The translations under genes and the position numbers were made by a program. Below the pieces are notes generated by a model. It saw only the letters and a list, made by a program, of their open reading frames with translations. It searched no databases and had not been told where the DNA came from. A stretch of 64,000 bases of DNA from an uncultured Porphyromonadaceae bacterium. Its GTDB lineage: Bacteria > Bacteroidota > Bacteroidia > Bacteroidales > Muribaculaceae. This document shows positions 46,304-64,000 of this stretch, in pieces; within the stretch, counting starts at the first letter, position 1, and each line of letters starts with the position of its first letter. The stretch spans positions 1 through 64,000 of the forward strand of contig CAMWTJ010000002.1 of the NCBI GenBank assembly GCA_947177185.1. Reading direction: 5' to 3'.

Positions 46304-46315
46304 TTACGGCCAGCC

Positions 46316-47707: not shown

Positions 47708-47728
47708 CGCGTGCGGCCCGGAACGGGT

Positions 47729-50041
47729 TCAGAACGGATAGCCGATGGCGAGGTGAAACGCCAGTGAGTTTTTGAACGACGTCATGTTGTAGTATCCGCG
47801 GCGCTCCGTGTCGTAGGGCGCGTGTATGCCTATGCCCAGGTCGGCGCGCACCACAAGTATGCTTATGTCGAGGCGCAGGCCGGCGCCGGTGCCGAGCGCC
47901 AGGTCCTTGAAAAACGACGATGCGCGCAGCTTGCCGCCCGGACGCAGAGGGTCGGTTTTGAGCAGCCACACGTTGCCGGCGTCGAGAAACACGGCGCCGT
48001 GGAGCGGGCCGAACAGCGGGAAGCGCAGCTCGGTGTTGGCTTCGAACTTGAAGGTGCCTGTGCGGTCGAAATACTCTTCGGGCGTGCCCTCGGGAGCGCG
48101 GTAGCTTCCCGGGCCTATGCTGCGTACGGTGAACGCGCGCACGCTGTTGGCGCCACCCACGTAGAACTGCTCGGAGTAGGGCACCTCTGATGCGTTGCCG
48201 TAGGCATGGGCTGCGCCCGCCGCCACGCGGCTCACCAGCCATATGTCGCCGCTTGTGATGCGCCGGCCCCACACGAGCTGTGCCTGCCCTTTCACAAACT
48301 GCGAGAACGGGGTGCCGAAAAGTTTCTTCTCGCCACGCTTGCCGAACGCGCGGTAGGCGGCCCAGAAGATGTTGCCGGCTTCCTGCACCGTGAACGTCCA
48401 GTTGAGCGTGTTGTCGCGGCCGAAGGCGCGGTCGTAGGTGTATGTGTAGGCCATCTGCGGTATGAACTGGCTGCGGAAGCTCTGTGCCACGGCCGGATTG
48501 GCCGCCATTATGCTGTCGAACTCGGCGGTGCGCCGCATGGTCTTGGTGTAGGACAGCTTGAAGAGTGTGAGCGTGTTGCTCACGTAGCGCCGCAGGCGCC
48601 AGTCGTAGTTTATGGATGCGTTGAACTGCGCCATCCTGAAATAGTGCGGCCTGTTGAGCAGCTCGGCGTTGAGCTGAAAGCGGGTCCAGTTGAGGTTGAA
48701 GCGGCTGCGCGGGATGAAGCGCGGAGCCAGCAGGCGCGGGAAGGCCAGCGATGCTGTGAGCCCCGCCTCGTAGCTGTTGAATACGGAGCTGCTGCCGCGG
48801 CCGGTCTGCCACTCGTATGCGCCGGTGAGCTGCAGCGACAGCTGCTCGCCGCCTCCGAAGAGATTGCGGTTGGTGAGGCCTACGGTCAGCCCCGGGCCTA
48901 TGTAGCTGTTGCTTTTGGACGTGGCGTTCACCTCAAGGGTGGCCTCGAGCGGGGAGTCGAACGTGCAGTCCACATCCACATTGAGTATGGCTTCGCCGCG
49001 TGCATAGGCGGCGGAGTCGGGCTGCGCCGATATGTTGATGGCGCTGAATATGCCCATGCGCGAGAGATTGCTCTGCGTGCGGTCCATGTTGCGCACGCTG
49101 AAAATGCGTCCCGGGCGGAACACCACACACTCGGGTATGAGCTTGCGGCGCAGGCGCGACGGCTGCATCTGTATCAGCGTGGCGCGGGATGTGGCTATGG
49201 TGTCGGGAGTGCCGCCGCCCTGCCTGCGGAAGGTGCGCACGGTCACATGGCCGGTGGTCCAGCGCCGCAGGGCGAATTTAGGAGCGTTGTCGGCCACCGT
49301 CATGCGCAGGGCTATGTGGCCCGGACGCTGTATGCTGTCGGCCAGATATTCTATGTATTCGGGGCTGAAGAAATAGTAGCCGCGGTTTCGCAGAGCGTTG
49401 GTGATGCGTGTGCGTGCCACTCCGAGCGAGTCGGTGCTGTAGCGCGGACGGCCCGAGAGATACGAGTCGCGCGCGGCTACCGAGTCGATGAGGTGATACA
49501 GGTGGCACGTGTCGGGCAGCAGCTGTATGGTGTCAATGGGAAACGGCGTGCCGGGCTGCACGGTGTATTGTATGGCCGCCTTTTTCGACCCTTCTTTGGT
49601 GATGAGTTCGTAGGTGGCTTTGCCGTGGAAGTAGCCGTTGTTGTCAAGCAGCTCGTCTATCATGTGCGTGCGCACCTCGGGGCGCACTTCGCTGATGAGC
49701 ACGGGCTCCTCCACCAGCTTTTCGTACAGCCAGTGCTTGAGGCCTTTGGAGTCGGGATTCCAGTTGTTGTAGACCCACAGCCCGAGCGGAAACGGGTATC
49801 GCCAGTCGAGAATCTTCAGATAGTTGTTCGGTGCGGCGAACACGGCGTTGCCGATACCCTCCTTCAGGCCTTCGGGCAGCATGTCGGGGCGGCCGGCCGA
49901 ATCGGCCGGCATGTGGTACAGCACTTTTTTATTGCCGGTGAAGAGATGTTCACCCTCGGGTATGCGTCGGGTGGTGGAGCAGGCTGCGAGCATCAGCACT
50001 GCTGCCGTGGCGGCTGCTATGTGGCGGAGGCGGGTAGGCAT
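47729..50041 (-). CDS. BamA/TamA family outer-membrane lipoprotein (TamL-like)
   Basis: A 770-residue outer-membrane protein. The signal peptide ends at the lipobox LAAC (Cys21). POTRA-like domains occupy about 30-400 (for example ITNALRNRGYYFFSPEYIEYL). The last 370 residues are an Omp85 barrel, ending in Phe (AIGYPF), with VGGANSVRAFTVRSIGPG near the conserved VRGF-type lid motif. TamL proteins of Bacteroidota work with TamB in outer-membrane assembly or lipid transport. No tamB is adjacent. The start at 50041 gives the best signal peptide; a start at 50065 is also possible. Confidence 0.9.
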   Translation of the reverse strand: MPTRLRHIAAATAAVLMLAACSTTRRIPEGEHLFTGNKKVLYHMPADSAGRPDMLPEGLKEGIGNAVFAAPNNYLKILDWRYPFPLGLWVYNNWNPDSKGLKHWLYEKLVEEPVLISEVRPEVRTHMIDELLDNNGYFHGKATYELITKEGSKKAAIQYTVQPGTPFPIDTIQLLPDTCHLYHLIDSVAARDSYLSGRPRYSTDSLGVARTRITNALRNRGYYFFSPEYIEYLADSIQRPGHIALRMTVADNAPKFALRRWTTGHVTVRTFRRQGGGTPDTIATSRATLIQMQPSRLRRKLIPECVVFRPGRIFSVRNMDRTQSNLSRMGIFSAINISAQPDSAAYARGEAILNVDVDCTFDSPLEATLEVNATSKSNSYIGPGLTVGLTNRNLFGGGEQLSLQLTGAYEWQTGRGSSSVFNSYEAGLTASLAFPRLLAPRFIPRSRFNLNWTRFQLNAELLNRPHYFRMAQFNASINYDWRLRRYVSNTLTLFKLSYTKTMRRTAEFDSIMAANPAVAQSFRSQFIPQMAYTYTYDRAFGRDNTLNWTFTVQEAGNIFWAAYRAFGKRGEKKLFGTPFSQFVKGQAQLVWGRRITSGDIWLVSRVAAGAAHAYGNASEVPYSEQFYVGGANSVRAFTVRSIGPGSYRAPEGTPEEYFDRTGTFKFEANTELRFPLFGPLHGAVFLDAGNVWLLKTDPLRPGGKLRASSFFKDLALGTGAGLRLDISILVVRADLGIGIHAPYDTERRGYYNMTSFKNSLAFHLAIGYPF

Positions 50042-50108
50042 GGATGTGATGTGGTGCGTGTGCATATGTGATGATATGCAAACAAGCATCCGGCATGTTT
50101 TGTTGCTG

Positions 50109-50139
50109 CAAAGGTAAGCCAAAGCGTCCGAAAAACAAA
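50109..50139 (-). promoter_or_regulatory. Promoter of the TamL-like gene
   Basis: On the minus strand, TACCTTTG (50116-50109) has a TTTG (50139-50136) 19 bases upstream. The leader to 50041 is about 60 bases. Confidence 0.75.
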
Positions 50140-50177
50140 AAAAGTGGCGGTGCGAAATCGCCCGCGGCATTTTTTAG

Positions 50178-50208
50178 TTGCACGGTTAGGCGGAAAATGT
50201 TAATTTTG
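50178..50208 (+). promoter_or_regulatory. Promoter of the thiamin operon
   Basis: TAATTTTG at 50201-50208 with TTG at 50178-50180, 20 bases upstream. Transcription would begin just before the riboswitch. Confidence 0.8.
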
Positions 50209-50221
50209 CGCCAGACAATAC

Positions 50222-50310
50222 AAGAGGGGTGCCCGCATGCCGGACATGGCGGGCTGAGATTATACCCTATGAACTTGATGCGGTCAGTACCGCCGAAAGG
50301 ACTTGTTCAT
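50222..50310 (+). ncRNA. TPP riboswitch (THI element)
   Basis: The leader has the conserved core: GAGGGGTGCCC, then GCTGAGATTATACCC (CUGAGA pyrimidine-binding loop), GAACTTGATGCGGTCAGTACC (near-perfect match to GAACCUGAUCnGGnUAGUACC) and CCGAAAGGA. It senses thiamin pyrophosphate and represses the operon when the vitamin is plentiful. About 60 bases separate it from the thiS ATG, so translational control is plausible; no strong intrinsic terminator is visible. Confidence 0.95.
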
Positions 50311-50368
50311 AGCCTTGATTTCGGGCGTGTGGCGCCCCGTAATGTATTCATATTTAAAGGCTATGGTC

Positions 50369-50572
50369 ATGAAAATCTACATCAACAATTCTGAAATTGA
50401 GCCGTCGGCCGGATGTGCCACCGTGCTCGATGTGCTGCGGCAGCAGGGGCTCGACACCGACGGCGTGGCCGTGGGTATCGGCGGCCGTGTGCTGCCGCGC
50501 AGTCAGTGGTCTGAAACGCCGCTTGCCGAAGGCATGCGCATCACCGTCATTCGCGCCGTGTGCGGAGGATGA
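50369..50572 (+). CDS. thiS: Sulfur carrier protein ThiS
   Basis: A 67-residue ubiquitin-like protein whose C-terminal Gly-Gly (RAVCGG) is adenylated by ThiF and thiolated to deliver sulfur for the thiazole ring. MKIYINNSEIE, GVAVGIGGRVLPRSQW and LAEGMRITVIRAV fit the family. The start at 50369 is selected because the domain begins there. Confidence 0.95.
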   Translation: MKIYINNSEIEPSAGCATVLDVLRQQGLDTDGVAVGIGGRVLPRSQWSETPLAEGMRITVIRAVCGG

Positions 50573-51141
50573 TGCGCGTGGTGGTGATCACCGACACGCC
50601 GTTTCGCAGCGGCGAGGCGGAGGCTATACGGCGGCTGCTCGAAAGCGGCGCCGCATGGCGTGTGCATCTGCGCAAGCCCGGATGTGCCGAGGCCGACATG
50701 AGGCGCCTTGTGGAGGCGCTTCCGAAGGGGCTGTGGCCGCGCCTGAGCCTGCACGACTGCCGCCATCTCGCAGCCGAATACGGATGCGGAGTCCATCTGA
50801 CAGCCCGCGGCGGCCCGGTCTGCGGGTATAGCAAATGCGCGCCTCTGAGCGTGTCGTGCCACAGCCTTGCCGAGCTTGCCGCACATCCCGAAGCCGACTA
50901 TATGTTCCTGAGCCCCGTCTACGACAGTATATCCAAGCCGGGCTACAAATCGGCGTTTTCGCCCGCCGCGGTGGCCGGCAGCACCGGCAGGCGCGTTTTC
51001 GCCTTAGGCGGCGTCACGCCGGAGCGTCTTCCCGAACTGCGCGCGGCTGGCTTCGGAGGGGCGGCGCTGCTGGGGTGCGTGTGGGGTGCCGGCAGTCCGG
51101 GCATAGAATCCATAATACAGCAGATATGTTACAATTCATAA
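50569..51141 (+). CDS. ThiE/TenI-like thiamin phosphate synthase homologue, divergent
   Basis: A 190-residue barrel protein of the ThiE/TenI superfamily. It begins VVVITDTPF and carries FLSPVYDSISKPGYKSAF and FALGGVTPERLPELRAAGFGGAAL. The QLRxK and HLGQxD motifs of a true ThiE are altered (VHLRKPG, GVHLTARGG), so it may be a TenI-type thiazole tautomerase rather than a second synthase. The start overlaps the thiS stop (ATGATG); the next codon, 50572, is also a possible start. Its end overlaps thiE by 16 bases. Confidence 0.8.
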   Translation: MMRVVVITDTPFRSGEAEAIRRLLESGAAWRVHLRKPGCAEADMRRLVEALPKGLWPRLSLHDCRHLAAEYGCGVHLTARGGPVCGYSKCAPLSVSCHSLAELAAHPEADYMFLSPVYDSISKPGYKSAFSPAAVAGSTGRRVFALGGVTPERLPELRAAGFGGAALLGCVWGAGSPGIESIIQQICYNS

Positions 51142-51752
51142 GTCATACCAACGACAGGCTGGACTACGCGTCCGGCGTGCGCGAGGTGTTGCGCGGCGGC
51201 TGCCGATGGGTGCAGCTGCGCATGAAGGATGCCTCCGACGAGGAATTCATGCGCGTGGGGCGCGAAGTGGCGGCAATGTGTCGCGCGGCGGGCGCCACAT
51301 TCATTGTCGACGACCGCGTGCATCTGGCGGTGCGGCTGCAGGCCGACGGCGTGCATCTGGGCCGCGAGGATATGCCGCCACGCCGGGCGAGGGACATCCT
51401 CGGCGGCGGGAAAATCATAGGCGCCACTGCCAATACTCTTGACGACATGCTGGCGGCGGCCGATGCCGGAGCTGACTACATAGGCCTCGGGCCGTTTCGC
51501 TTCACGACCACTAAAGCCAGGCTGAGCCCGGTGCTCGGCCTCGACGGATATAGCCGTATCATGGCCGGGTTCAGGCGCCGTAGCGCCATGCCTGTGGTGG
51601 CTATCGGCGGCATCACGGCCGACGATGTGGCCGGACTGATGGCCGCGGGCGTCAGCGGAGTGGCCGTGTCGGGCGCTCTTCTCGGAGCGGAAGACCCCGC
51701 GCAGGCCACTGCACGGATAATGCAAATAATTTCAAAACACAAGCAAATATGA
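51126..51752 (+). CDS. thiE: Thiamin phosphate synthase
   Basis: A 208-residue TIM barrel that joins HMP pyrophosphate with thiazole phosphate to make thiamin phosphate. Family motifs are [51 protein letters not shown] and [12 protein letters not shown]. The start at 51126 overlaps the previous gene by 16 bases; its stop overlaps thiG by 4 bases. Confidence 0.94.
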
Positions 51753-52516
51753 GTGAACTGACAATAGGCGGACGACGATTCGCCTCACGCCTGTTCGTGG
51801 GTACAGGCAAATTTCAGAGCAACGATGTGATGGCACGGGCCATAGAGGCTTCGGGCACAGAGATGGTCACCGTGGCCATGAAACGCATCGACATGGCCGA
51901 CCCTGACGACGACATGCTCGCGCACGTGCGCCGGCCGGGCATACAGCTGCTGCCCAACACGTCGGGCGTGCGCGATGCCGCCGAGGCGGTGTTTGCCGCG
52001 CAGCTCGCCCGCGAGGCTTTCGGCACCGATTTCATAAAACTTGAAATCCATCCCGACCCCAAATACCTGATGCCTGACGCGGTGGAAACGCTCAAGGCCA
52101 CCGAAGAGCTCGCGCGCATGGGCTTTGTGGTGCTGCCCTACGTGCAGGCCGACCCCGTGCTGTGCAAGCGGCTCGAAGAAGCCGGCGCGGCGGCTGTGAT
52201 GCCGCTGGCGGCGCCGATAGGAACCAACAAGGGACTTGTGACCCGCGAGTTGCTCGAGATAATAGTGGAGCAGAGCAGGGTGCCGGTGGTGGTCGACGCC
52301 GGCCTTGGCGCGCCGTCGCATGCCGCCGAGGCCATGGAGCTGGGCGCCGATGCCGTGCTCGTGAACACAGCCATTGCGGTGGCCGGCGACCCTGTGCGCA
52401 TGGCGGCGGCTTTCGCGCGCGCCACCGAGGCAGGCCGCGAGGCTTTCGAAGCCGGCCTGGGAGCGCAGTCGCGCTGCGCAGGTGCAAGCAGTCCGCTCAC
52501 TTCATTTCTTGACTGA
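51749..52516 (+). CDS. thiG: Thiazole synthase
   Basis: A 255-residue barrel that assembles the thiazole phosphate ring from deoxyxylulose 5-phosphate, dehydroglycine and ThiS thiocarboxylate. [68 protein letters not shown] and [13 protein letters not shown] are diagnostic. The stop and the thiH start share one base (TGATG). In several Bacteroides operons thiC sits here between thiG and thiH; it is absent. Confidence 0.97.
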
Positions 52517-53625
52517 TGTTTTCAGACGAACTTCTTAAATACGACTGGGACGAAATCACGGCGCGCATAGCTTCGAAGACAGCTGCCGACGTGGAGCGCG
52601 CTCTTGCCGCGCGCCGTCCCGCAATCGACGATTTCATGGCGCTTGTGTCGCCAGCCGCCGCGCCGTATCTCGAACAGATGGCGGCCAAAAGCAGGGCGCT
52701 CACGCAGAAGCGCTTCGGCAAGACGGTGTCGATGTACATCCCGATGTATATCACCAACTCATGCACCAATTCGTGTGTGTACTGCGGATTCAACCGCCAC
52801 AACAAGCAGCCGCGCGTGGTGCTCGACCCGGAGCAGATAGAGGCCGAGTGCCGTGCCATACGCCGCCTGGGACCGTTTGAGAATCTGCTGCTCGTCACGG
52901 GCGAGAATCCGCATGTGGCCGGCACCGACTATCTGGAGCGCGCGCTGCAGGTGTGCCGCCCTTATTTCAGCAACCTTACCATAGAGGTGATGCCGCTGGC
53001 CTCGGAAGACTATCTGAGGCTGACGCGCTCGGGCCTCAACGGCGTGGTGTGCTTTCAGGAAACATACCACCGCGAGCGCTACAAGGTGTATCACCCCGCC
53101 GGCATGAAGAGCAATTTCGAGTGGCGTGTCAACGGCTTCGACCGCATGGGGCAGGCCGGGGTGCACAAGATAGGCATGGGAGTGCTGATAGGGCTTGAGG
53201 ACTGGCGCACGGATGTGACCATGATGGCCATGCACCTGCGCTATCTGCAGGCGCGCTATTGGCGCACGCGCTACAGCGTGAATTTTCCGCGTCTGCGTCC
53301 GAGCGAGAGCGGCTACCAGCCCAATGTGGTTATGACCGACCGCGAGCTCGCGCAGCTGACGTTCGCTTTCCGTATCTTCGACGAGGATGTGGACATATCC
53401 GTTTCCACGCGCGAGAAACCCGATTTCCGCGACCATATGGCCACACTCGGGGCCACATCCATGAGCGCTGGTTCCCGCACCGAGCCCGGCGGGTATGAAA
53501 CCTATCCGCAGGCGCTGGAGCAGTTTGCCGTGAGCGACGACCGCTCGCCGGCCGAAGTGGCTGATGCTCTGCGCCGCGCCGGATGCGAGGTGGTATGGAA
53601 AGACTGGGATAAAGTGTTCGACTGA
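52516..53625 (+). CDS. thiH: 2-iminoacetate (dehydroglycine) synthase, radical SAM
   Basis: A 369-residue radical-SAM tyrosine lyase that cuts tyrosine to p-cresol and dehydroglycine, the anaerobic route to the thiazole nitrogen. The iron-sulfur cluster motif is SCTNSCVYCGF (Cys83, Cys87, Cys90). Other family segments are LLVTGENPHVAG, LNGVVCFQETYHRERY and VNFPRLRPSESGYQP. One base overlaps thiG and one overlaps thiF. Confidence 0.97.
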   Translation: MFSDELLKYDWDEITARIASKTAADVERALAARRPAIDDFMALVSPAAAPYLEQMAAKSRALTQKRFGKTVSMYIPMYITNSCTNSCVYCGFNRHNKQPRVVLDPEQIEAECRAIRRLGPFENLLLVTGENPHVAGTDYLERALQVCRPYFSNLTIEVMPLASEDYLRLTRSGLNGVVCFQETYHRERYKVYHPAGMKSNFEWRVNGFDRMGQAGVHKIGMGVLIGLEDWRTDVTMMAMHLRYLQARYWRTRYSVNFPRLRPSESGYQPNVVMTDRELAQLTFAFRIFDEDVDISVSTREKPDFRDHMATLGATSMSAGSRTEPGGYETYPQALEQFAVSDDRSPAEVADALRRAGCEVVWKDWDKVFD

Positions 53626-54332
53626 TGGAAAAGTCTGATTTCAGCCGCTACGCGCGTCAGACCATGCTTCCGCAGATAGGTGCGGAAGGGCAGCGCCGTA
53701 TTGCCGCCGCGTCGGTGCTCGTGGTTGGGCTCGGCGGCCTCGGGGCGCCCGTGTGCGCCTACCTTGCCGGCGCGGGAGTGGGGCGCCTCGGTCTTTGCGA
53801 CTCCGACACGGTGAGTGTGTCGAATCTGCACCGTCAGCTGCTGTACGCCAAGGCCGACACGGGACTGCCGAAAACCGAGGCCGCGCAGCGCCGCCTGAGC
53901 GCAGTGTCGGGCGACACACGCTTCAGCCTGCATCCCTGCGGCCTCACCGGGGCCGACGCCGCCGGCATCATCGGCGCTTATGATCTGGTGGTGGACTGCT
54001 GCGACAATTTCGCCACACGATATCTGATAGACGACACATGCCGCGCGGCGCGCAAGCCGTGGGTCTACGGCTCAATAGGCGAGTTCAGCGGACAGCTGGC
54101 TCTGATGGGCGGGCGGCGCGGGCTGCGCTACGCCGATTTGTACCCCGGACGCGAGAGCCTATGCGCGCGGCCACGTGCCGTGGCCGGAGTGCTCGGCCCT
54201 GTGCCGGGTGTGATAGGAGCCATGCAGGCCGCCGAGGCTCTGAAATGGCTCGCCGGCATAGAGAGCCCGCTCGACGGAGCTGTGTTTTCAATCGATATGC
54301 TTACATTTCAAACATCTATATTACAATTCTGA
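53625..54332 (+). CDS. thiF: ThiS adenylyltransferase
   Basis: A 235-residue E1-like enzyme that adenylates the ThiS C-terminus. It has RYARQTMLPQIG (arginine finger), the nucleotide loop VVGLGGLGAPV, CDSDTVSVSNLHRQLLY and DLVVDCCDNFATRYLI. The two CxxC zinc pairs of E. coli ThiF/MoeB are not present (YADLYPG replaces CLRCLFP), which is seen in some non-zinc relatives. It ends 2 bases before the methyltransferase gene. Confidence 0.93.
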   Translation: MEKSDFSRYARQTMLPQIGAEGQRRIAAASVLVVGLGGLGAPVCAYLAGAGVGRLGLCDSDTVSVSNLHRQLLYAKADTGLPKTEAAQRRLSAVSGDTRFSLHPCGLTGADAAGIIGAYDLVVDCCDNFATRYLIDDTCRAARKPWVYGSIGEFSGQLALMGGRRGLRYADLYPGRESLCARPRAVAGVLGPVPGVIGAMQAAEALKWLAGIESPLDGAVFSIDMLTFQTSILQF

Positions 54333-54334
54333 CT

Positions 54335-55045
54335 ATGGGAAAAGGATTTGACGAATATGCGCACGAATACGACGCATGGTTTCTCGAAAACCGCAATGTG
54401 CTGTATTCGGAGGTGAATCTTGTGGCTTCTGTGCTGCGTGGTGCCGGCAAAGTGCTGTCGGTGGGCTGCGGAAGCGGACTTTTCGAGAAAATCATGCGCG
54501 AGGAACGCGGCATAGACGTGCGTTGCGGCATAGAGCCTTCGGAAGGCATGGCTGAAATAGCGCGCCGGCGCGGCATGAGTGTGACCGTGTGCACGGCCGA
54601 GGAGGCCGATTTCGGTGCCGGCGAGTACGATGCCATACTGTTTAATGGCTCGCCAAGCTATATCGAGGGGCTGGCCGGCGTGGTGCGCAAGGCCTACGAG
54701 GCGCTCCGCCCCGGAGGACGCATAATCCTTGTCGACGTGCCGAAAGAAAGCGGCTACGGCACGCTCTACAACCTGGCCAAGGCTCTCGGCACATGGCAGC
54801 ATCCGCTGCTCGAAGGGGTGTATCCTCCGAACCCTTATCCGATGGAATTCGTGAATGTGGCAAACTGGCGCACCACTGCCGAGAAGGCTGAACTGCTGGA
54901 GGCCGCAGGCTTCGGCGACATCACTTACGCGCAGACACTGACAGCGCACCCGCTGTATTCCGACCTGCGCGAGGAGCAGCCGCAGCAAGGGTGCGACAAG
55001 GGCGACTATGTGGCCGTGTGCGGCATAAAACCTGCCGACGCATGA
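54335..55045 (+). CDS. Class I SAM-dependent methyltransferase within the thiamin operon
   Basis: A 236-residue Rossmann-fold methyltransferase. The SAM-binding glycine motif is KVLSVGCGSGLFEKIM; later motifs include DAILFNGSPSYIEGL and ALRPGGRIILVDVP. It resembles UbiE/Methyltransf_11 proteins. It is not a known step of thiamin synthesis, yet it lies tightly between thiF (2-base gap) and tenA (4-base overlap), so it is controlled by the same riboswitch. The substrate is unknown. The start at 54335 is chosen because the domain begins there. Confidence 0.85.
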   Translation: MGKGFDEYAHEYDAWFLENRNVLYSEVNLVASVLRGAGKVLSVGCGSGLFEKIMREERGIDVRCGIEPSEGMAEIARRRGMSVTVCTAEEADFGAGEYDAILFNGSPSYIEGLAGVVRKAYEALRPGGRIILVDVPKESGYGTLYNLAKALGTWQHPLLEGVYPPNPYPMEFVNVANWRTTAEKAELLEAAGFGDITYAQTLTAHPLYSDLREEQPQQGCDKGDYVAVCGIKPADA

Positions 55046-55695
55046 GCTGCTGGAGTGAGGAGGCCTGGCGCGCGGCCGCGCCGGTGTACGAGCGTATAAT
55101 CGCCCACCCCTTCGTGCAGGCCCTGGCCGACGGCACGCTGCCGGAGGCATGTTTCATGCGCTATCTGCGTCAGGACTCGATGTATCTGGGGCAGTACACG
55201 CGTGTGCTCGCACACATAGCCTCACGCATGCCGGACAGCGCGCATGGCGCCGACTTTCTGCGTTTTGCGCTGGACGGCGTGGCGGTGGAGCGCGAGCTGC
55301 ACGAGTCTTTCCTCGGCGGAAAAGGCGCGGAAGGGGAAGCCATGTCGCCCGCGTGCATGCTTTACACGTCGGTGCTTAAAGCCTGCGCTTTAGAGTCCGT
55401 GGAGGTGGAGGCTGCCGCTGTGTTGCCATGCTTTTGGGTGTATCAGCGTGTGGGCGAGGAAATATTGAAGCGGCAGCGAGCCGTGCCGCACAATCCGTAC
55501 AAGGCGTGGATTGACACCTACGCCGCGCCGGGATTCGCCGAGTCGACACGCCGCGCCGTGGAGATATGCGACAGCCTGGCTGCCGCGGCATCGCCGGCCA
55601 CACGCGATGCGATGACTGAAATATTTGTGCGCTGCACCCGCATGGAATGGCTGTTCTGGGACAGCGCATGGAATCTTGAACAATGGAAAATATGA
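55042..55695 (+). CDS. tenA: TenA family aminopyrimidine aminohydrolase (thiaminase II)
   Basis: A 217-residue all-helical enzyme that hydrolyses aminopyrimidine breakdown products of thiamin to recover HMP. The active-site Cys is in AAVLPCFWVYQRVG (Cys130). Other segments are FMRYLRQDSMYLGQYTRVLA and NPYKAWIDTYAAPGFAE. It overlaps the methyltransferase by 4 bases and thiD by 13. Without thiC in this operon, TenA may be an important pyrimidine source (inference). Confidence 0.92.
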   Translation: MSCWSEEAWRAAAPVYERIIAHPFVQALADGTLPEACFMRYLRQDSMYLGQYTRVLAHIASRMPDSAHGADFLRFALDGVAVERELHESFLGGKGAEGEAMSPACMLYTSVLKACALESVEVEAAAVLPCFWVYQRVGEEILKRQRAVPHNPYKAWIDTYAAPGFAESTRRAVEICDSLAAAASPATRDAMTEIFVRCTRMEWLFWDSAWNLEQWKI

Positions 55696-56507
55696 AGACA
55701 TACCGCCGGGCGCTGACCATAGCCGGCAGCGACCCCAGCGGAGGGGCCGGCATACAGGCCGACCTCAAGACTTTTTCTGCGCTCGGCTGCTTCGGCACCT
55801 CGGCCATAGTGGCCGTGGTGGACGAAAACACAGTGGGAGTGACGGGAGTGCATCCTGTGCCTGTGGATTTTGTGGCCGGGCAGATACGCTCGGTGCTCGA
55901 CGACATAGGCGCCGACGCCATAAAAATAGGCATGCTGCACTCGGCGGAGCTCATAAACACCGTGCGGGCCACACTCGATGCTTATCCGGGCATACGCGAC
56001 ATAGTGCTTGACCCCGTGATGGTGGCCACCTCGGGCGACCCTCTGCTGATGCCCGACGCCGTGGACGCGCTGCGCTGCGTGCTCATGCCGCGCGTGCGTG
56101 TGATTACTCCCAACATCCCCGAGGCTTCCATGCTGCTCGGAACGGAGCTTTCGCGGCAGAGCGAGCTGCCCGACGCATCGCGGCGCCTTTCCGATGTGTG
56201 CGGCGGCGTGTCGGTGTTGCTGAAAGCCGGACATCTGAGCGACGAGCGCCTGACGGATATTTTCTTCAACGCCGAAACCGGCACTCTTCACAGCCTCGAA
56301 TCGCGGCGTCTGCGCACGCCCAACACTCACGGCACGGGGTGCACGCTGTCGTCGGCCTTCGCCGCCGGACTGGCCCGCGGGCTTTCGCTCGACGCCGCCG
56401 CAACTGCCGCCAAAGACTATGTGGCGGCCGCCATCGAGGCGGGCGCGCGCTACAGCATAGGCCGCGGCCACGGTCCCGTGCACCACTTTTTCGGCTTCTG
56501 GGAATAG
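55683..56507 (+). CDS. thiD: Hydroxymethylpyrimidine (phosphate) kinase
   Basis: A 274-residue ribokinase-fold enzyme that phosphorylates HMP and HMP phosphate to HMP pyrophosphate. RALTIAGSDPSGGAGIQADLKTF, the GSDPSGG substrate loop, DPVMVATSGDPLL, ITPNIPEASMLLG and the anion-hole THGTGCTLSSAFAAGLARG are diagnostic. It overlaps tenA by 13 bases and ends the operon. Confidence 0.96.
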   Translation: MENMKTYRRALTIAGSDPSGGAGIQADLKTFSALGCFGTSAIVAVVDENTVGVTGVHPVPVDFVAGQIRSVLDDIGADAIKIGMLHSAELINTVRATLDAYPGIRDIVLDPVMVATSGDPLLMPDAVDALRCVLMPRVRVITPNIPEASMLLGTELSRQSELPDASRRLSDVCGGVSVLLKAGHLSDERLTDIFFNAETGTLHSLESRRLRTPNTHGTGCTLSSAFAAGLARGLSLDAAATAAKDYVAAAIEAGARYSIGRGHGPVHHFFGFWE

Positions 56508-56560
56508 GCGGGGTCAACTATTGGCGCGCTGTGCTTGTTGCTTTATAAACGTTTCGTCCG

Positions 56561-57877
56561 ATGAAGCTACGAGAGCATCTTAGCCGTGCGCGGCTGCGTT
56601 TTGTCGCAGCACCCGTGTATGTGGTCGGCCCGGCCATGTGCTTGGCTGTCGGACTCGTCACGGGCATAGGCTCGGCTGTGCTCAAATGGCTGATTGAGCA
56701 TACGCACACGCTCGCACTCGGCATGATGAACGCCGAGCGCGCCAACTGGATGCTGATAGCGCTGCCGGTGGTGGGAATTGTGCTCACAGGGCTGTTTACG
56801 CACTATGTGCTTCACCGCGACATCGAACACTCCACCGACAAGATCCGCGACGACCTGCGCCGGGGCATAGACTACATCTCTCCCGAACTCATGTACGGCC
56901 CGATCATTGCGAGCTCGCTGACCCTCGGTTTCGGCGGTTCGGCGGGCTCGGAAGGCCCGATTGTGAGCGTGGGAGCGGCCGTGGGGGGCAATTTGGCCCG
57001 CCGGCTCGGCCTGTCGGACCATATGGTGCGCATCATGATAGCATGCGGTGCGGCAGCCGGCATAGCAGGCATTTTCAAGGCGCCGGTGGGGGGGATGCTT
57101 TTTGCGCTCGAGTGTCTGGGCATGCAGCTGACCACACTGCCGGTGATAGGCATACTGGCCACATGTATAGTGGCTTCGCTTACGGCTTATGTGCTCTCCG
57201 GCTGTGTGCCCGACCTGTCGCTCGTGCGTTTTGTGCCGCAGAGCCTCGACTATCTGCCGGCGGTGGTGTTGCTCGGACTGTTCTGCGGGGTGTATTCCAT
57301 CTACTACAGCCGCACCGGGCTGGGCACGGAGCGGTGGCTGCTGGGTGTGTCGGACCGCCGCGTGCGCAATGTGGTGTCGGGACTCACCGTCGGTGTTCTG
57401 CTGTTTCTTTTTCCGGCACTGTACGGCGAAGGCTATGCCGTGATAGACAAGCTGATGAATACGCCCGGCTATACACTCGGCGAGTACAGCCCCCTGTATG
57501 CGCTGGGCCACCTGGGCCACTACGGGCTGCTGCTTATAGCCGTGGGGCTGCTGCTGGTAAAGGGCATAGCCGCCTATGCCACCAACAGCGGCGGCGGTGT
57601 GGCCGGCGATTTCGCCCCTACGCTCTTTGCCGGCGCTATAGCCGGCTATCTGTTTGTGACGGCGGCGCAGACTCTGCTGGACTGCGCGCTGCCTATGCCG
57701 GTGTTTGTGCTCGGCGGCATGGCGGGGGTGATGGCGGGTGCCGTGCGCGCCCCGCTCATGGCTATTTTCATTACGGTGGAAATGACGGCGAGCTATGAAT
57801 ATTTCATGCCGGTGACCATAGCCGGAATCATATCCTACGGAGTGGTGATGCTCCACCGCGTGATGGCGCACAAATAG
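56561..57877 (+). CDS. ClC family chloride channel/antiporter
   Basis: A 438-residue inner-membrane protein with at least ten helices. The ion-path segments are FGGSAGSEGPIVSVGAAVG, whose Glu corresponds to the gating Glu of ClC, APVGGMLFALE and GGGVAGDFAPTLFAGA. The gating Glu is typical of Cl-/H+ exchangers as well as channels. No C-terminal CBS domains are present. It starts 53 bases after thiD and may be read from that transcript or a promoter I cannot see. Confidence 0.92.
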   Translation: MKLREHLSRARLRFVAAPVYVVGPAMCLAVGLVTGIGSAVLKWLIEHTHTLALGMMNAERANWMLIALPVVGIVLTGLFTHYVLHRDIEHSTDKIRDDLRRGIDYISPELMYGPIIASSLTLGFGGSAGSEGPIVSVGAAVGGNLARRLGLSDHMVRIMIACGAAAGIAGIFKAPVGGMLFALECLGMQLTTLPVIGILATCIVASLTAYVLSGCVPDLSLVRFVPQSLDYLPAVVLLGLFCGVYSIYYSRTGLGTERWLLGVSDRRVRNVVSGLTVGVLLFLFPALYGEGYAVIDKLMNTPGYTLGEYSPLYALGHLGHYGLLLIAVGLLLVKGIAAYATNSGGGVAGDFAPTLFAGAIAGYLFVTAAQTLLDCALPMPVFVLGGMAGVMAGAVRAPLMAIFITVEMTASYEYFMPVTIAGIISYGVVMLHRVMAHK

Positions 57878-57880
57878 CAT

Positions 57881-57918
57881 CCCCTGCCGGGTGTTTCCGT
57901 GGAAACGCGGGGCAGGGG
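57881..57918. terminator. Bidirectional terminator hairpin between ClC and fcl
   Basis: CCCCTGCC (57881-57888) pairs with GGCAGGGG (57911-57918); an inner stem GTTTCC/GGAAAC (57893-57906) closes a tiny loop. It lies just after the ClC stop and 29 bases after the convergent fcl stop. There is no long T-run, so strength is uncertain. Confidence 0.65.
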
Positions 57919-57946
57919 ACGTTGTGGTGTGTGGCGCGCGGTATTC

Positions 57947-58888
57947 TTATCGCTCGGCGCGCATGGGGTTGTTGAGGAAATCGTCGTAGGCCAGCTTTAT
58001 GCCTTCGGGCAGTTCGGTGGTGTATTTCCAGCCCAAGGCGGTGGCCTTGCTTACGTCGAGCAGCTTGCGTGGCGTGCCGTTGGGGCGGGTGGTGTCCCAC
58101 AGGATGCGGCCGTTGTAGCCCACGGTTTTCGCAACCAGTTCGGTGAGCTCTTTGATTGTGAGTTCCTTGCCGGTGCCGGCGTTGACGGTTTCGTTGCCCG
58201 AATAGTTGTTCATAAGGAACACGCAGAGGTTGGCCAGGTCGTCGACATACAGAAACTCGCGAAGCGGCGAGCCGTCGCCCCAGCATGTCACTTCCTCAAG
58301 GCCCTGCTCCTTGGCTTCGTGGAAGCGGCGTATGAGGGCCGGAAGCACGTGGGAGTGCTCGGGGTGGTAGTTGTCGTTGGGGCCGTAGAGGTTGGTCGGC
58401 ATCACCGATATGTAGTCCGTGCCGTACTGCCTGTTGAGGTACTCGCAGTATTTCAGGCCCGAAATCTTGGCCAGGGCATAGGCTTCGTTTGTTTTTTCGA
58501 GTTCGGACGTGAGCAGGCAGCTTTCCGGCATGGGCTGCGGCGCCATGCGCGGGTAGATGCACGAGGAACCGAGAAATTCGAGTTTCTTGCATCCGTTGCG
58601 CCATGCGGCGTTGATTACGTTCATCTCGAGCATCATGTTGTCGTACATGAAGTCGGCCAGAGCCGTAGAGTTGGCGATTATGCCTCCCACTTTGGCGGCT
58701 GCGAGAAACACGTATTCGGGGCGTTCTGCCGCGAAGAAATCGTTGACAGCACGCTGGTCCACGAGGTCGAGTTCCTTGTGTGTGCGTGTGATTATATTGG
58801 TGTAGCCCTGCCGTTGCAGTTCGCGCACTATAGCCGAACCTACCATGCCGCGGTGGCCGGCCACATAAATCTTAGCGTCTTTTTCCAT
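57947..58888 (-). CDS. fcl: GDP-L-fucose synthase
   Basis: A 313-residue NADPH-dependent epimerase/reductase that turns GDP-4-keto-6-deoxymannose into GDP-L-fucose. The Rossmann loop is [12 protein letters not shown]; the catalytic Tyr-Lys pair is in [33 protein letters not shown] and [16 protein letters not shown] are family signatures. The start at 58888 lies 2 bases after the stop of the kinase fusion gene. The longer frame upstream runs inside that gene. It is the last gene of the UpxY-led operon. Confidence 0.96.
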
Positions 58889-58890
58889 GA

Positions 58891-60078
58891 TTATAATGAA
58901 TCGTTGCGGCGGATTTTTATGGGGAGCGCGCCTTCGGGCAGCGGTGCTCCTTCCGGCATCACCAGGGCGAGGTGTCCGCCACCGCCGGCCCCGGTCATTT
59001 TCCACGCCACGGCGCCTGCGGCGCGTGCGCGGTCTATAAATTCGGCCACTCCCGGCGCCATCATGGCCGGAAACATGGCGGTCTGCGCCTCGAAGGAGGC
59101 GAGATATGCCTTGGCGAACGCGTCGTCGTCGCGCGCCATGATTGCCTCCCAGCATGCGTCGGCTGCCTGAGCCAGTGCTTTCACCTTCTCGGGCGTGATG
59201 TCCTTGCCTTCCACCACGGAGTAGCCCGGCGTGCGCGGAAACATCGGCAGCAGGCACAGACGGTTTTCGAGCCACGACAGTATGGCCTCGTCGTGGCAGC
59301 TTTCGATGCGGTCGGGCCAGTAGCGGTTGTCGTAGTGGTGTCTTACCAGGCCGGTCATGCATATGCCTATGGCATCCTGCGCGCCGGACACGTGTCCGCG
59401 GTCGTCCTCAGGGTCGTTCTCGAAGCAAAACAGCAGTCGGGCCAGCATCTCCTCGTCGTAGTTCGGGAGCTGATACGGCCATATCTTGCGTGCGGCGTTG
59501 CGTGTGGAGGTCGACATGCCTGCCCTCTCCATGAACGGCTCCTCGCGCGCCTCGATAGACACTGTGATGGCCCATCCGGGGCAGTACTGCGACACGTAGG
59601 GCTGGTCAATCCACGTGCCGGCGAGGTCTATGCGATACGGCAGCGCGCACTGCACGGTGGAGCGCAGCGAGGTGGTGGAGCGTGCTTCCAGGCCGGCGTC
59701 GGGCACTCGCTGCAGCTCCACATATTCGATGCCGCGCTCGGCGCACAGCCGGCGCTTGGCGTCGGAACCGCCGTCGGAGTTCACCACGAAGATGTCGGGC
59801 CTGACGCGGTCCAGTGTGTCCACGAAATCCATCATGCCCGAGCCGCGGTTGATGTAGGCGTCGGTCACGTAGCGTATGGACTTCACCATATAGAGCCGCT
59901 CCTTTTCGGAGCACACTGTCTTGCGGTTTTTGAGCTCGCGTATGGTGGCGTCGGAGCCGATGCCCACATAGAGGTCGCCGAAGCGCGAGGCTTCCTTGAA
60001 GAAAGCCACGTGCCCGGAGTGCAGCATGTCGTAGCATCCGCTTACAAACACTTTTTTTCTGCTATCGCTGTTTTGCAT
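58891..60078 (-). CDS. Nucleotidyltransferase-GHMP kinase fusion, probably sugar activation
   Basis: A 395-residue two-domain protein. Residues about 8-130 are a cytidylyltransferase-like domain with [13 protein letters not shown] (the HxGH motif, His20 and His23) and [11 protein letters not shown]. Residues about 142-395 form a GHMP kinase: motif 1 [15 protein letters not shown], motif 2 [13 protein letters not shown], motif 3 [14 protein letters not shown]. Both domains act on small phosphorylated sugars in related proteins. Position between a FucP-like transporter (17-base overlap upstream) and fcl (2-base gap) suggests kinase and nucleotide transfer steps that salvage fucose or another deoxyhexose; a heptose is also possible. 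It is far smaller than, and differently built from, Bacteroides Fkp. The substrate is not proven. Confidence 0.8.
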
Positions 60079-61342
60079 GGTCGTATATTATTATTCCGAA
60101 TGAGTAGACCGCTATCACCACAAAGCAAAGCGCTGGCACGGCAAACGACGCCGCGATGCCGCACGCATCGGACACGAGCGCCTGCAGCGGAGTGATCAGC
60201 GCCCCGCCGAGTATGGCCATTATCAGGCCCGAAGCGGCTATTTTGGCAGTGTCGCCGGTGATGCCCTCGAGTGCTTCGCCGTAGATGGTGGGAAACATCA
60301 GCGACATGCACCCCGAAATGCCTACCAGCGCCCACACGGCAGCCTCGCCCGGCGCGGCTATTACCGTGATGGTGCACACGAGAGCGCACACGGTGGCGGC
60401 GGCCAGCAGCAGTATGGGGCGCACACGCCCCATGAGCCAGGTGAACAGGAAGCGCGCGGCCGTAAACGCCAGTATGGAGTATAGAAACACCATGGCGGCG
60501 TCGGGCTCGGCCACGCCGCGGCGGTCCATGACGAAGCGTATGGTGAACGACCATACGCCGGTCTGCACGCCCACGTAGAAGAACTGGGCCACCACGCCGT
60601 AGCGGTAGCGGCGGTTGCGCCATAGAGTGCCGAACGCCGCCGCCACTCCCGAGCCTCCGGCCGAGGTGTCGCGGTCGGAGGGCATGCGCACGCACGCTAT
60701 GACTGCCAGCAGCGCGAGCAGTACGCAGCCTATGAGCATGTAGGTGCCGCTGACGGCGTCGAGTTCGTGGCGCTGCACGGCGGCAAGCGCCTCGGCTCCC
60801 ATGCGGGAGCGCTCGGCTGCGTCGGCGCCATGCAGTTCCGAAAGTATGAAATGGCGGCTGAGCAGGATGCCGCCCACCGCGCCCACGGGGTTCAGCGTCT
60901 GCGCCACGTTGAGGCGGCGGGTGGCTGTGGCGGCCGGTCCCATCGACAGGATGTACGGGTTGGCCGTGGTTTCAAGCACGGCGCATCCTGCCGCCATCAC
61001 GTAGATGGCAAACAGGAAAAACGCGTAGCTGGCCACGGCGCCGGCCGGATAAAACAGCATCGTGCCTGCCGCATACAGAGCCAGTCCGAGCAGTATGCCC
61101 GACTTGTAGCTGTGGCGGCGTATGAACATGGCGGCCGGCAGCGCTACGCAGAAATATGCGCCGTAGAAGGCAAACTGCACCAGCGATGTCTGCAGGTCGC
61201 TCATAGACATGATGCGGCGGAAGGCCGCCAGCAGCGTGTCGTTCATATTGTTGGCCAGTCCCCACAGCAAAAACAGCAGGGACACGAGCACGAAGGCGAG
61301 GGCGGTCCTCGGCTCGCTGAGGCGGCGGGTGTGCGGTTTCAC
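60062..61342 (-). CDS. FucP-like MFS sugar:proton symporter
   Basis: A 426-residue transporter with 12 predicted helices. The first helix shows FLLWGLANNMNDTLLAAF, and the fucose-permease group's ETTANPYILSMGP and NVAQTLNPVGAVGG are present in the middle; FPTIYGEALEGITGDTAKIAASGLIMAILGGA follows near the C-terminus. FucP proteins import L-fucose, but glucose/galactose relatives exist, so the substrate is inferred from the fucose operon. It overlaps the downstream fusion gene by 17 bases. Confidence 0.85.
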   Translation of the reverse strand: MKPHTRRLSEPRTALAFVLVSLLFLLWGLANNMNDTLLAAFRRIMSMSDLQTSLVQFAFYGAYFCVALPAAMFIRRHSYKSGILLGLALYAAGTMLFYPAGAVASYAFFLFAIYVMAAGCAVLETTANPYILSMGPAATATRRLNVAQTLNPVGAVGGILLSRHFILSELHGADAAERSRMGAEALAAVQRHELDAVSGTYMLIGCVLLALLAVIACVRMPSDRDTSAGGSGVAAAFGTLWRNRRYRYGVVAQFFYVGVQTGVWSFTIRFVMDRRGVAEPDAAMVFLYSILAFTAARFLFTWLMGRVRPILLLAAATVCALVCTITVIAAPGEAAVWALVGISGCMSLMFPTIYGEALEGITGDTAKIAASGLIMAILGGALITPLQALVSDACGIAASFAVPALCFVVIAVYSFGIIIYDHAKQR

Positions 61343-61367
61343 AGTCAGTGGTGCCGGTGCGTGGGGT

Positions 61368-62459
61368 TTATTTTACGATGCCTTTTTCGAGATATTCGGC
61401 AAGGTTGGTGCGCACCTGCTCGCCGGCGCGCTCCACGGCCACCTTGGCCATGTCGGCGTCGACCATGAGGTTGACGAGCTGTTCGAACGAGGTCTTTTTC
61501 GAGGGGTCCCAGCCGAGTTTCTTGCGGGCCTTGGAGGGGTCGCCCCAAAGGTTTACCACGTCGGTCGGGCGGTAGAAATCGGGAGAAACCTCGATGAGCA
61601 CACGCCCGGTGGCTGTGTCGATGCCTTTTTCGTCGGCTCCCTCGCCCTCGAAACGCAGCTCGATGCCTGCACGGCGGAACGCCAGCTGGCAGAACTCACG
61701 CACGGAGTGCTGTTCGCCGGTGGCTATCACATAGTCCTCGGCCTCGGGCTGCTGCAGTATGAGCCACATGCACTCCACGTAGTCGCGTGCATAGCCCCAG
61801 TCGCGCAGGCTCGAGAGGTTGCCCAGGTAGAGCTTGTCCTGTTTGCCCTGTGCGATGCGTGCGGCGGCGAGGGTGATTTTGCGTGTGACGAATGTTTCGC
61901 CGCGGCGTTCGCTTTCGTGGTTGAACAGGATGCCCGAGCAGCAGTACATGCCGTAGGCCTCGCGGTATTCCTTCACTATCCAGAAGCCGTAGAGCTTGGC
62001 CACGGCGTAGGGGCTGTAGGGGTGGAAGGGAGTGTTTTCGTTCTGCGGCACCTCTTCCACTTTTCCGTAGAGCTCCGATGTGCTGGCCTGATAGACGCGG
62101 CAGCTGTCGGTGAGCCCGCACAGGCGCACGGCCTCAAGGATGCGGAGCACGCCGGTGGCGTCTACGTTGGCGGTGAACTCGGGCGAGTCAAACGATACCT
62201 GCACATGGCTCTGCGCGGCAAGGTTGTAGATTTCGTCGGGGCGTACTTTCGACACTACCTGCATGATGGACATGGAGTCGCCGAGGTCGGCGTAATGCAG
62301 GTGGAAATTGGGCTTGCCCTCAAGGTGGGCTATGCGTTCGCGGAAGTCTACCGACGAGCGGCGTATGGTGCCATGCACGTCGTAGCCCTTGTCAAGAAGA
62401 AACTCGGCGAGGAAGGAGCCGTCCTGGCCCGTGATGCCGGTTATGAGCGCTGTTTTCAT
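61368..62459 (-). CDS. gmd: GDP-mannose 4,6-dehydratase
   Basis: A 363-residue SDR enzyme, first step from GDP-mannose to GDP-L-fucose (or GDP-rhamnose). [26 protein letters not shown] is diagnostic, with [25 protein letters not shown] and the catalytic YAVAKLYG. It works with fcl in the same operon, which points to GDP-L-fucose as product. Confidence 0.97.
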
Positions 62460-62520
62460 TGTTGATAGTTAAATCTGTCGTTACCTTTTGTTATAGTTGT
62501 ATTGTGGAATCTTAATGATT

Positions 62521-63276
62521 TCACTTGCTTTGTTCTTTTTCGCGGGAGCGCTTTGCGCGCCACTCGCTGTAGAGCAGGCGCGGCAGCGACTCCACTATGC
62601 CGCGGCAGCGTGCAAACTGTTTCTTGGGCTCGCGCGAGAGGCGGTACACAAATTCGAGATGGCTGTCGACCATCCACTGTGGCGCGCGTTTGGCCTCGAC
62701 GCCGCTGAAAAATTTGAACACCGCGCCCACGGCTATGGCCACGCCATGCTTCAGGTGGGGCTTCAGCCGGTGCATGAACTGCTCTTGCTTGGGAGCTCCG
62801 AGGGCCACCCACACTATGTCGGCGCCGTCTTCTTCAATCATCCGCGCTATGGCCGGATAGTCGAATTCGTCGACGGCGCGGAACGGCAGTTCGTGGAAGG
62901 TCATGGACTCCACGTCGGGGTTCCAGGCTGCGATGGTGCGCTGCAGCCCGTCGAGGGTGGGCTGCTGTGTGCCGAGGAAAATCATGCGGTAGCGGCGGCT
63001 GCGCACTATGTCTTCGAAAATCTGGCTGCCGCTGTACTGGCCGAAGCGGCGTCCGTAAATCCATTTTATGTACAGCGGGACGTAGCTGCTGTCGCAGATG
63101 GCAAACATGCCGTCGTTGACCACGCGACGGTAGTTCTCGTCGCGGAACGCGTTGTTGAGAATCACGCCGTCGGCCACGCATATGTAGTCGGAGCCGGGCT
63201 GCGGCAGGCGTTCGGCTATGCTGCGGTGCACTGCATCTCGGTCGAATTCGTAGTTGAGCTTGAAATAGGTTTCCAT
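62521..63276 (-). CDS. WecG/TagA/CpsF family glycosyltransferase (GT26)
   Basis: A 251-residue membrane-associated glycosyltransferase. Family motifs are YICVADGVILNN, MIFLGTQQPTLDGL, DIVWVALGAPKQEQFM and IAVGAVFKFFSGVEAKRAPQW. Such enzymes transfer ManNAc(A) or a similar sugar to a lipid-linked intermediate. It is the second gene after upxY and before gmd. The donor sugar cannot be deduced. Confidence 0.92.
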   Translation of the reverse strand: METYFKLNYEFDRDAVHRSIAERLPQPGSDYICVADGVILNNAFRDENYRRVVNDGMFAICDSSYVPLYIKWIYGRRFGQYSGSQIFEDIVRSRRYRMIFLGTQQPTLDGLQRTIAAWNPDVESMTFHELPFRAVDEFDYPAIARMIEEDGADIVWVALGAPKQEQFMHRLKPHLKHGVAIAVGAVFKFFSGVEAKRAPQWMVDSHLEFVYRLSREPKKQFARCRGIVESLPRLLYSEWRAKRSREKEQSK

Positions 63277-63295
63277 CTCGCTTTCGTGTGAAGCT

Positions 63296-63859
63296 TTATT
63301 GAACGAATGAAATAAAGTCAGGGTCTACCTCCACGGCTGCCGTGAGCAGTCCGGGCAGTTCCACTATCAGGCGTCGTTTGCGCATGCCTTTCACCGACAG
63401 GAGCCGCCCCTGATAGCCGTCAAGCGGTCCGCCCACTATGCGTATGCGGCGTCCGTACATCTGCGCGGTGAGCTCGTCGGGGCTGTAGAAGCGCGCGCTC
63501 TCGTCGGCGGCTGTCGCGCCCATGAAGCGGGCCATGTCGGTGTCGCGCACCGTCAGCGCCGTGCCGAAGGCCGCTCCGCGCATGAAGCGGTACTGCAGAG
63601 TGGCGGTGGCGCGCACCACCGGGTCGAGCAGCGAGCGTGTGGACCGCACAAACAGAAGGTCGCGCACGAAAGGCACACGTTCGCGCCTGCGGCGGCCGTT
63701 GGCGCCTGTGCGCACCACCCACTGCATGGGGGTGTACACCTCGAATCCTTCTTCGGCGAGCTGCCTGTAGGCCGGGTGCAGTGCGTTGGCGCGCTTAAGG
63801 TCGCGCATCACAAACCATTGTGGCACGTCGGGGCTTATAATCTCTGCGGCAGATAGCAT
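63296..63859 (-). CDS. UpxY family transcription antiterminator (NusG-like)
   Basis: A 187-residue NusG paralogue. The NGN domain starts QWFVMRDLKRANALHPAYRQLAEEGFEVYTPMQ, and RVPFVRDLLFVRS follows; a KOW motif lies near the C-terminus (GGPLDGYQGRLLSVKGMRKRR). UpxY proteins act in cis to keep RNA polymerase reading through their own capsule operon. It is the first gene of the operon running to fcl. Confidence 0.93.
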   Translation of the reverse strand: MLSAAEIISPDVPQWFVMRDLKRANALHPAYRQLAEEGFEVYTPMQWVVRTGANGRRRRERVPFVRDLLFVRSTRSLLDPVVRATATLQYRFMRGAAFGTALTVRDTDMARFMGATAADESARFYSPDELTAQMYGRRIRIVGGPLDGYQGRLLSVKGMRKRRLIVELPGLLTAAVEVDPDFISFVQ

Positions 63860-63921
63860 ATAGTGGTGGCGCGTACCTATTAGACTGTGAATAAATTTGT
63901 TCAGAACTGTGTTTCAGACTG

Positions 63922-63929
63922 CAAAGTTA
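63922..63929 (-). promoter_or_regulatory. Promoter -7 box of the UpxY-led polysaccharide operon
   Basis: TAACTTTG on the minus strand gives a leader of about 60 bases to the ATG at 63859. No well-spaced -33 TTG is seen. I find no paired inverted repeats around it in the 141 bases available, so there is no sign of an invertible promoter on this side; the far side is outside the window. Confidence 0.55.
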
Positions 63930-64000
63930 CGACAAAAATCTCAATATACATATCGGTGAGCTAAAAAACTCTGACTTTTCAGCGCTTTGACATGGATTCG

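Follow-up and report, generated by a model that had tools for sequence, protein, structure and literature searches.

How might a bacterium of the order Bacteroidales activate imported L-fucose other than through Fkp, the L-fucokinase/GDP-fucose pyrophosphorylase from whose presence fucose salvage is usually read in this order? The question is raised by contig CAMWTJ010000002.1 (assembly GCA_947177185.1) of an uncultured Porphyromonadaceae bacterium placed in the Muribaculaceae, of which positions 1 to 64,000, called the window below, were analysed. A run of GDP-fucose genes in this window contains a gene for a compact fusion protein, in which a nucleotidyltransferase of the HxGH type is joined to a GHMP kinase. 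The fusion is a real, conserved type of protein, and it would represent a second way of activating fucose: in some Bacteroidales, imported fucose is probably converted by it to an activated sugar, the task that Fkp performs with other parts.

In the pathway that we infer from the sequences, FucP would import free L-fucose, the C-terminal GHMP kinase would phosphorylate it at C1 to beta-L-fucose-1-phosphate, with ATP as the presumed donor, and the N-terminal HxGH domain would then join the fucose-1-phosphate to a nucleoside triphosphate, most likely GTP. The resulting GDP-L-fucose would be the same product that gmd and fcl of the run make de novo from GDP-mannose. We consider it quite probable that the two halves together convert L-fucose into a nucleoside diphosphate (NDP)-fucose, whichever the nucleotide, and we incline, with less assurance, to GDP-fucose as the particular product.

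Two conserved active sites in one protein

A chance reading frame can be ruled out. Of 393 genomes from the window's order, 56 carry the compact form, and at least 587 genome-contig stretches, of which the best 80 were kept, encode relatives. The predicted 395-residue fusion is borne out by its open reading frame (ORF), its Pfam domains and its conservation. The N-terminal half matches CTP_transf_like (PF01467) at residues 12-120 (E 1.3e-12, 48.5 bits against a cut-off of 21) and belongs to that superfamily by profile, by fold (the fold search returned 1coz, 3glv, 5x3d and 2b7l) and by its HxGH motif and the R133-R139 segment, which we take to be the STT motif. The C-terminal half matches GHMP_kinases_C at residues 339-374 (E 2.7e-5, 24.9 bits against a cut-off of 21, below which some relatives score) and has the motif 1, P-loop, catalytic Asp, motif 3 and fold of the GHMP superfamily. 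For the kinase, the heptokinase WcbL was the best match by fold, the rows covering mostly residues 131-392 (VIA-align). One AlphaFold2 model, based on 64 alignment rows, reached a predicted local distance difference test score (pLDDT) of 87.7 and a predicted template modelling score (pTM) of 0.73. Both active sites are conserved across 133 aligned relatives, an alignment from which the more distant cousins considered below (L124-L134, L135, L136) and sequences of 350 residues or less were omitted. One sequence set comprised 64 sequences out of 68 first tried.

The active site of the kinase resembles that of Fkp. According to a study of Fkp (PMC11982464), fucose is contacted by R592, W599, D601, Q761 and D762, the counterparts of R149, W156, D158, Q234 and D235 in the fusion, all in columns at least 97% conserved; T602, a further contact, differs. 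The fucose-stacking Trp, seven residues after the motif-1 Arg (R+7), was found in every compact sequence whose motif could be read (135 of the 136 tested) and in 15/15 Fkp sequences, against 0/12 HddA-like kinases. For the kinase half of one relative (L189), the best solved structure by sequence was Fkp (E 1.2e-9), the HddA-type 3k85 scoring E 7.8e-5.

The kinase is nevertheless a shortened one, of only about 250 residues. The motif-1 Arg and the P-loop, both located in 136 compact sequences, are 37-38 residues apart in 134 of them, as compared with 101-102 residues in the HddA-like kinases (12 sequences) and 121-123 in Fkp (15 sequences). The Pfam GHMP N-terminal domain is absent from the fusion's hits at E <= 1, and the N-terminal part of its kinase is not of full size and lacks the segment in which adenine is modelled in Fkp. 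The original prediction of a complete GHMP kinase goes too far: the catalytic Asp and each of the three motif regions are present, but the Arg-to-P-loop spacing is reduced and the N-terminal Pfam domain is not listed.

Fucose genes at the locus and in the genome

Gene neighbours were counted by tblastn at 137 deduplicated compact loci (153 loci less 11 cousins and 5 duplicates), many of them from metagenome-assembled genomes with short flanks. At least one of fucP, gmd, fcl, a RhaM-type mutarotase gene and GH29 lies within 3 kb at 82 of them, so that the relatives do not adjoin mostly heptose or unrelated sugar genes, the outcome named in advance as fatal to a fucose role. Within this distance fucP was found at 47 loci, gmd at 42, fcl at 40, the mutarotase at 24, a ManC-type gene at 15 and GH29 at 5; the fucose-linked neighbours share the strand of the fusion, save one gmd and one fcl. 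By clustering of ORFs, five loci have fucI near the fusion and four have fucU. These cluster counts are rough and the tblastn counts are preferred, the simple ORF script losing genes in loci of high GC content (it missed the window's own fusion). Profile checks confirmed fucI in L049, L092 and L176, and fucU in L173 and L176. At L176, a single strand carries, in order, GH29, fucK, fucI, the fusion, fucU, fucP, an aldolase gene and GH29, with fucK, fucI, fucU and fucP all above the NCBIfam cut-offs. Three loci (L138, L140, L147) encode three-part proteins of 592-595 residues, in which an N-terminal mutarotase domain (rhaM) precedes the nucleotidyltransferase and the kinase; after the mutarotase domain, a stretch of about 100 residues matches nothing in Pfam over cut-off. 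A fused mutarotase domain would suit a kinase requiring one anomer. A separate cluster, at most three ORFs from the fusion in five loci, includes a 612-residue protein with sugar-nucleotidyltransferase and class I/II aminotransferase parts (L088:7025-8863).

Among the 393 genomes, 56 with the compact form and 337 others (counts without phylogenetic correction; compact and cousin forms, the latter in 10 genomes, were separated by size and identity), fucP accompanies the fusion. Called with TIGR00885 at E <= 1e-60 (161 genomes, 133 of them above the curated cut-off), it is present in 52/56 compact genomes against 109/337 others (odds ratio 27, p 1.8e-18), and by a stricter, hand-split list in 51/56 against 78/337. 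Fkp (NF009948 over cut-off) shows the reverse, 0/56 against 27/337 (p 0.02), and, among the genomes with fucP, 0/52 with the fusion against 21/109 without it (p 2.3e-4). Because five anonymised families contain both enzyme types, in separate genomes, this exclusion does not simply reflect two separate lineages. HddA-like kinases, which served as a control, are not associated with the fusion (18/56 against 92/337, p 0.52); as a proxy they were defined as below-cut-off hits of the Fkp model, G347 and G167 being removed by hand. These two genomes have ORFs of about 1100 residues with a weak match to the kinase part of Fkp (G347:C1:47656-48810, G167:C11:8912-10060), and in G347 this ORF and a compact fusion are about 4 kb apart. 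In 23 compact genomes, including that of the window, fucP is present and neither FucI nor Fkp was found; in the window's own genome, which is 90.9% complete, FucK over cut-off was not found either. In 80 genomes, the 56 compact ones and 24 hand-picked controls, the associations with gmd (47/56 against 15/24, p 0.045) and with GT11 (11/56 against 2/24, p 0.32) are weak.

In the window, the genes form a tight minus-strand run of six, upxY-wecG-gmd-fucP-fusion-fcl (Table 1), the first encoding a NusG-family protein that is presumably UpxY-like; the large ORFs flanking the run on both sides are on the opposite strand. The tight coupling predicted for the fusion, between a FucP-like transporter and fcl, is confirmed: the fucP stop ends at 60062 and the fusion starts at 60078, a 17 bp overlap, and two bases separate the fusion stop (58891) from the fcl ATG (58888). 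The run also includes gmd, which the original prediction had not named and which lies directly upstream of fucP. A promoter and terminator scan returned sites no more frequently than in shuffled sequence. Elsewhere in the window, a run recognized by eye at 50303-56507 resembles a thiamine biosynthesis cluster (thiS, thiE-like, thiG, thiH, thiF-like, tenA-like and thiD genes), with a methyltransferase-like gene inside it.

Table 1. Genes of the six-gene run and sites of the fusion protein, in window positions
Feature	Coordinates	Strand	Evidence or remark
NusG-family protein, opens the gene run	63296..63859	-	PF02357 E 8e-5, 23.5 bits, cut-off 22.2
WecG/TagA/CpsF-type glycosyltransferase	62521..63276	-	PF03808 E 2.2e-37
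gmd, GDP-mannose 4,6-dehydratase	61368..62459	-	TIGR01472 499.4 bits, cut-off 415
FucP, L-fucose:H+ symporter	60062..61342	-	TIGR00885 401.8 bits, cut-off 280.4
Fusion protein, HxGH nucleotidyltransferase + compact GHMP kinase	58891..60078	-	ORF, 395 residues, ATG start
Nucleotidyltransferase domain, about residues 8-142	59653..60057	-
HxGH motif, H20-S-G-H23	60010..60021	-	Every column at least 97% conserved (133 sequences)
R133-S-T-T-S-L-R139, presumed counterpart of the STT motif of GCT/RfaE-type enzymes	59662..59682	-	R133, S134, T136 at least 97% (133 sequences)
Compact GHMP kinase domain, about residues 145-395	58894..59646	-
Kinase motif 1, R149-I-D-L-A-G-T-W156-I-D158	59605..59634	-	Aligned to Fkp R592, W599, D601 (PMC11982464)
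P-loop, G187-M-S-T-S-T192	59503..59520	-	G187, S191 at least 97%; other positions lower
G232-A-Q234-D235	59374..59385	-	Counterpart of Fkp Q761-D762 via the common G-x-Q-D motif
GHMP motif 3, G363-A-G-G-G-G	58975..58992	-	Conservation alignment
fcl, GDP-L-fucose synthase	57947..58888	-	NF047922 477.3 bits, slightly below cut-off 500

Which nucleotide and which sugar

Four lines of evidence, the neighbours, the fused mutarotase domain, the co-occurrence with fucP and the active-site residues, point to L-fucose as the likely sugar. The suggestion of a smaller alternative to Fkp, activating an imported sugar that might be fucose, is likewise supported by the neighbour survey, the fucP co-occurrence and the exclusion of Fkp. 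Several observations weigh on the other side. At 43 of the 137 loci, many with short flanks, none of six marker genes lies within 8 kb, and the context is silent there. The RhaM family is named for L-rhamnose, and the aldolase of L176 scores above the cut-off for rhamnulose-1-phosphate aldolase. The Trp signature is also present in 11/11 cousins, which have no known fucose neighbours. Because the kinase lacks the stretch into which adenine is modelled in Fkp, ATP can be named as its phosphate donor only presumptively. As to GDP, the HxGH nucleotidyltransferase fold is, to our knowledge, known with CTP and ATP only, and 12/137 loci, those of genomes G178 and G350 among them, have a ManC-type gene no more than 500 bp from the fusion; gmd was not found in either of these genomes. 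Both halves of what would be a widespread salvage enzyme may be without precedent, which we advance tentatively: the one as a maker of NDP-fucose on the HxGH fold, being either the first GTP user of that fold or a source of ADP- or CDP-fucose, the other as a GHMP kinase that, without the adenine segment of Fkp, would use another phosphate donor or bind ATP in a new way.

The alternative that survives best keeps the substrate, and so falls within the NDP-fucose proposal, and changes the nucleotide: the enzyme would make ADP- or CDP-L-fucose for transferases of its own and merely share a GDP-fucose operon. The nearest matches of the nucleotidyltransferase, GCT, Fom1 cytidylyltransferase and the RfaE/HldC type, are CTP or ATP users, and gmd or fcl lies within 3 kb at only 49/137 loci. 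We nonetheless think it unlikely, GDP being favoured by the operons shared with gmd and fcl, by the absence of Fkp, itself a GDP-fucose maker, from all 56 genomes with the fusion, and by genome G364 (93% complete), which has the fusion and fucP together with a GT11-family protein, and in which gmd and Fkp were not found.

It is less likely still that the kinase alone acts on fucose, GDP-fucose being made by a guanylyltransferase apart from the fusion, for instance the ManC-type neighbour, and the HxGH domain being otherwise employed. At L148 (6952-9152) and similar loci, the ManC-type guanylyltransferase gene is directly upstream, overlapping the start of the fusion by 4 bp in L148. Against such a division of labour, the HxGH columns are at least 97% conserved in the 133 sequences (Table 1), and of the 124 loci whose flanks reach 500 bp on either side, 113 have no ManC-type gene within that distance; nor was one found in the stretch of the window searched (46001-64000).

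Another sugar, L-rhamnose or one carried by FucP such as D-arabinose or L-galactose, is very improbable. One report (PMC13406643) has FucP also transporting L-galactose and D-arabinose, at lower efficiency, and the RhaM-type mutarotases and the rhamnulose-1-phosphate-type aldolase would fit; fucI, fucK, fucU and GH29 or GH95 nevertheless adjoin relatives, and gmd and fcl share the operon. Least credible is a heptose enzyme, a kinase and heptose-1-phosphate nucleotidyltransferase comparable to HddA plus HldE domain II: rfaE domain II is the best NCBIfam match of the N-terminal half, WcbL tops the fold search and the cousins score as HddA/RfaE-like, but the scores lie far below the curated cut-offs (53.1 against 181.5 bits for TIGR02199, 12.1 against 600 for the HddA model NF049969), and the Trp motif, the fucose neighbours and the lack of association with HddA-like genes all speak otherwise.

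If fucose is indeed the substrate, the fusion would replace Fkp non-orthologously, through a nucleotidyltransferase of another fold. It would also offer a compact new means of making nucleotide-fucose, and a GHMP kinase in which one could test directly whether the usual adenine pocket is needed. Reading fucose capture from Fkp would then underestimate it, the genomes with the compact enzyme being, among the 393, about twice as many as those with Fkp (56 against 27). Judged by titles and abstract openings, no description of this fusion was found among the open-access papers that the literature searches listed.

Comparison with known systems

Sister to the fusion in the kinase tree are cousins of 450 residues (L124-L132), which share with it the domain order, a shortened kinase (spacing 47) and the Trp/Asp signature, and differ in their identity to it (31-34% in the genome search) and in their HddA/RfaE-like scores. 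The six marker genes were not found near them, and the neighbours read in 8 loci show no fucose pattern; L124 adjoins a dehydratase-like protein that loose clustering placed with gmd. In a tree of 59 kinase domains, 23 of them compact (the window's, 18 random and 4 chosen), the compact kinases join the cousins with support 100. By sequence, the nearest relatives of the kinase are therefore other nucleotidyltransferase-GHMP fusions, and its fusion seems to have arisen separately from that of Fkp.

More partial relatives were also met. A candidate paralogue in the window's own genome (L002) was set aside, its match being confined to the nucleotidyltransferase half (query 7-103); it is a 447-residue protein (L002:1501-2844, contig C10) with a TagD-like nucleotidyltransferase and, by eye, a Gfo/Idh/MocA-like oxidoreductase part. 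All matches in nine plasmid records fall inside the nucleotidyltransferase half, and most of the 69 virome loci match that half or little beyond. Among the virome relatives are two proteins read in more detail: a 380-residue protein of 48% identity (L226:4986-6128), beside what by eye are sulfotransferase- and glycosyltransferase-like genes, and one of 367 residues (L230:4980-6083), whose kinase part is shorter still.

HldE/RfaE domain II and HldC, heptose-1-phosphate adenylyltransferases, resemble the fusion in using an HxGH nucleotidyltransferase on a sugar-1-phosphate, as proposed here. The fusion scores well below their model, and its partner is a GHMP kinase, that of HldE being of the PfkB type. 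The heptose kinases HddA (heptose-7-phosphate kinase) and WcbL share the GHMP fold and the Asp at R+9, and differ in the longer spacing and in the sugar-stacking position R+7, where the fusion has Trp and not Gly.

With Fkp the fusion would share the overall reaction, and it does share the GHMP kinase signature R-I/L-D-x-A-G-x-W-x-D with G-x-Q-D, the bacterial order and the fucP partner. Fkp is a protein of about 950 residues, with a full-size kinase and an N-terminal pyrophosphorylase of another fold, and is known from B. fragilis and its relatives; the fusion has the reverse domain order and a PF01467 N-terminus of the HxGH type, scores 21.1 bits with NF009948 against a cut-off of 721, and has no genome in common with Fkp among the 393. 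By score and domain content it is not a member of the Fkp family, of which it would rather be a functional analogue.
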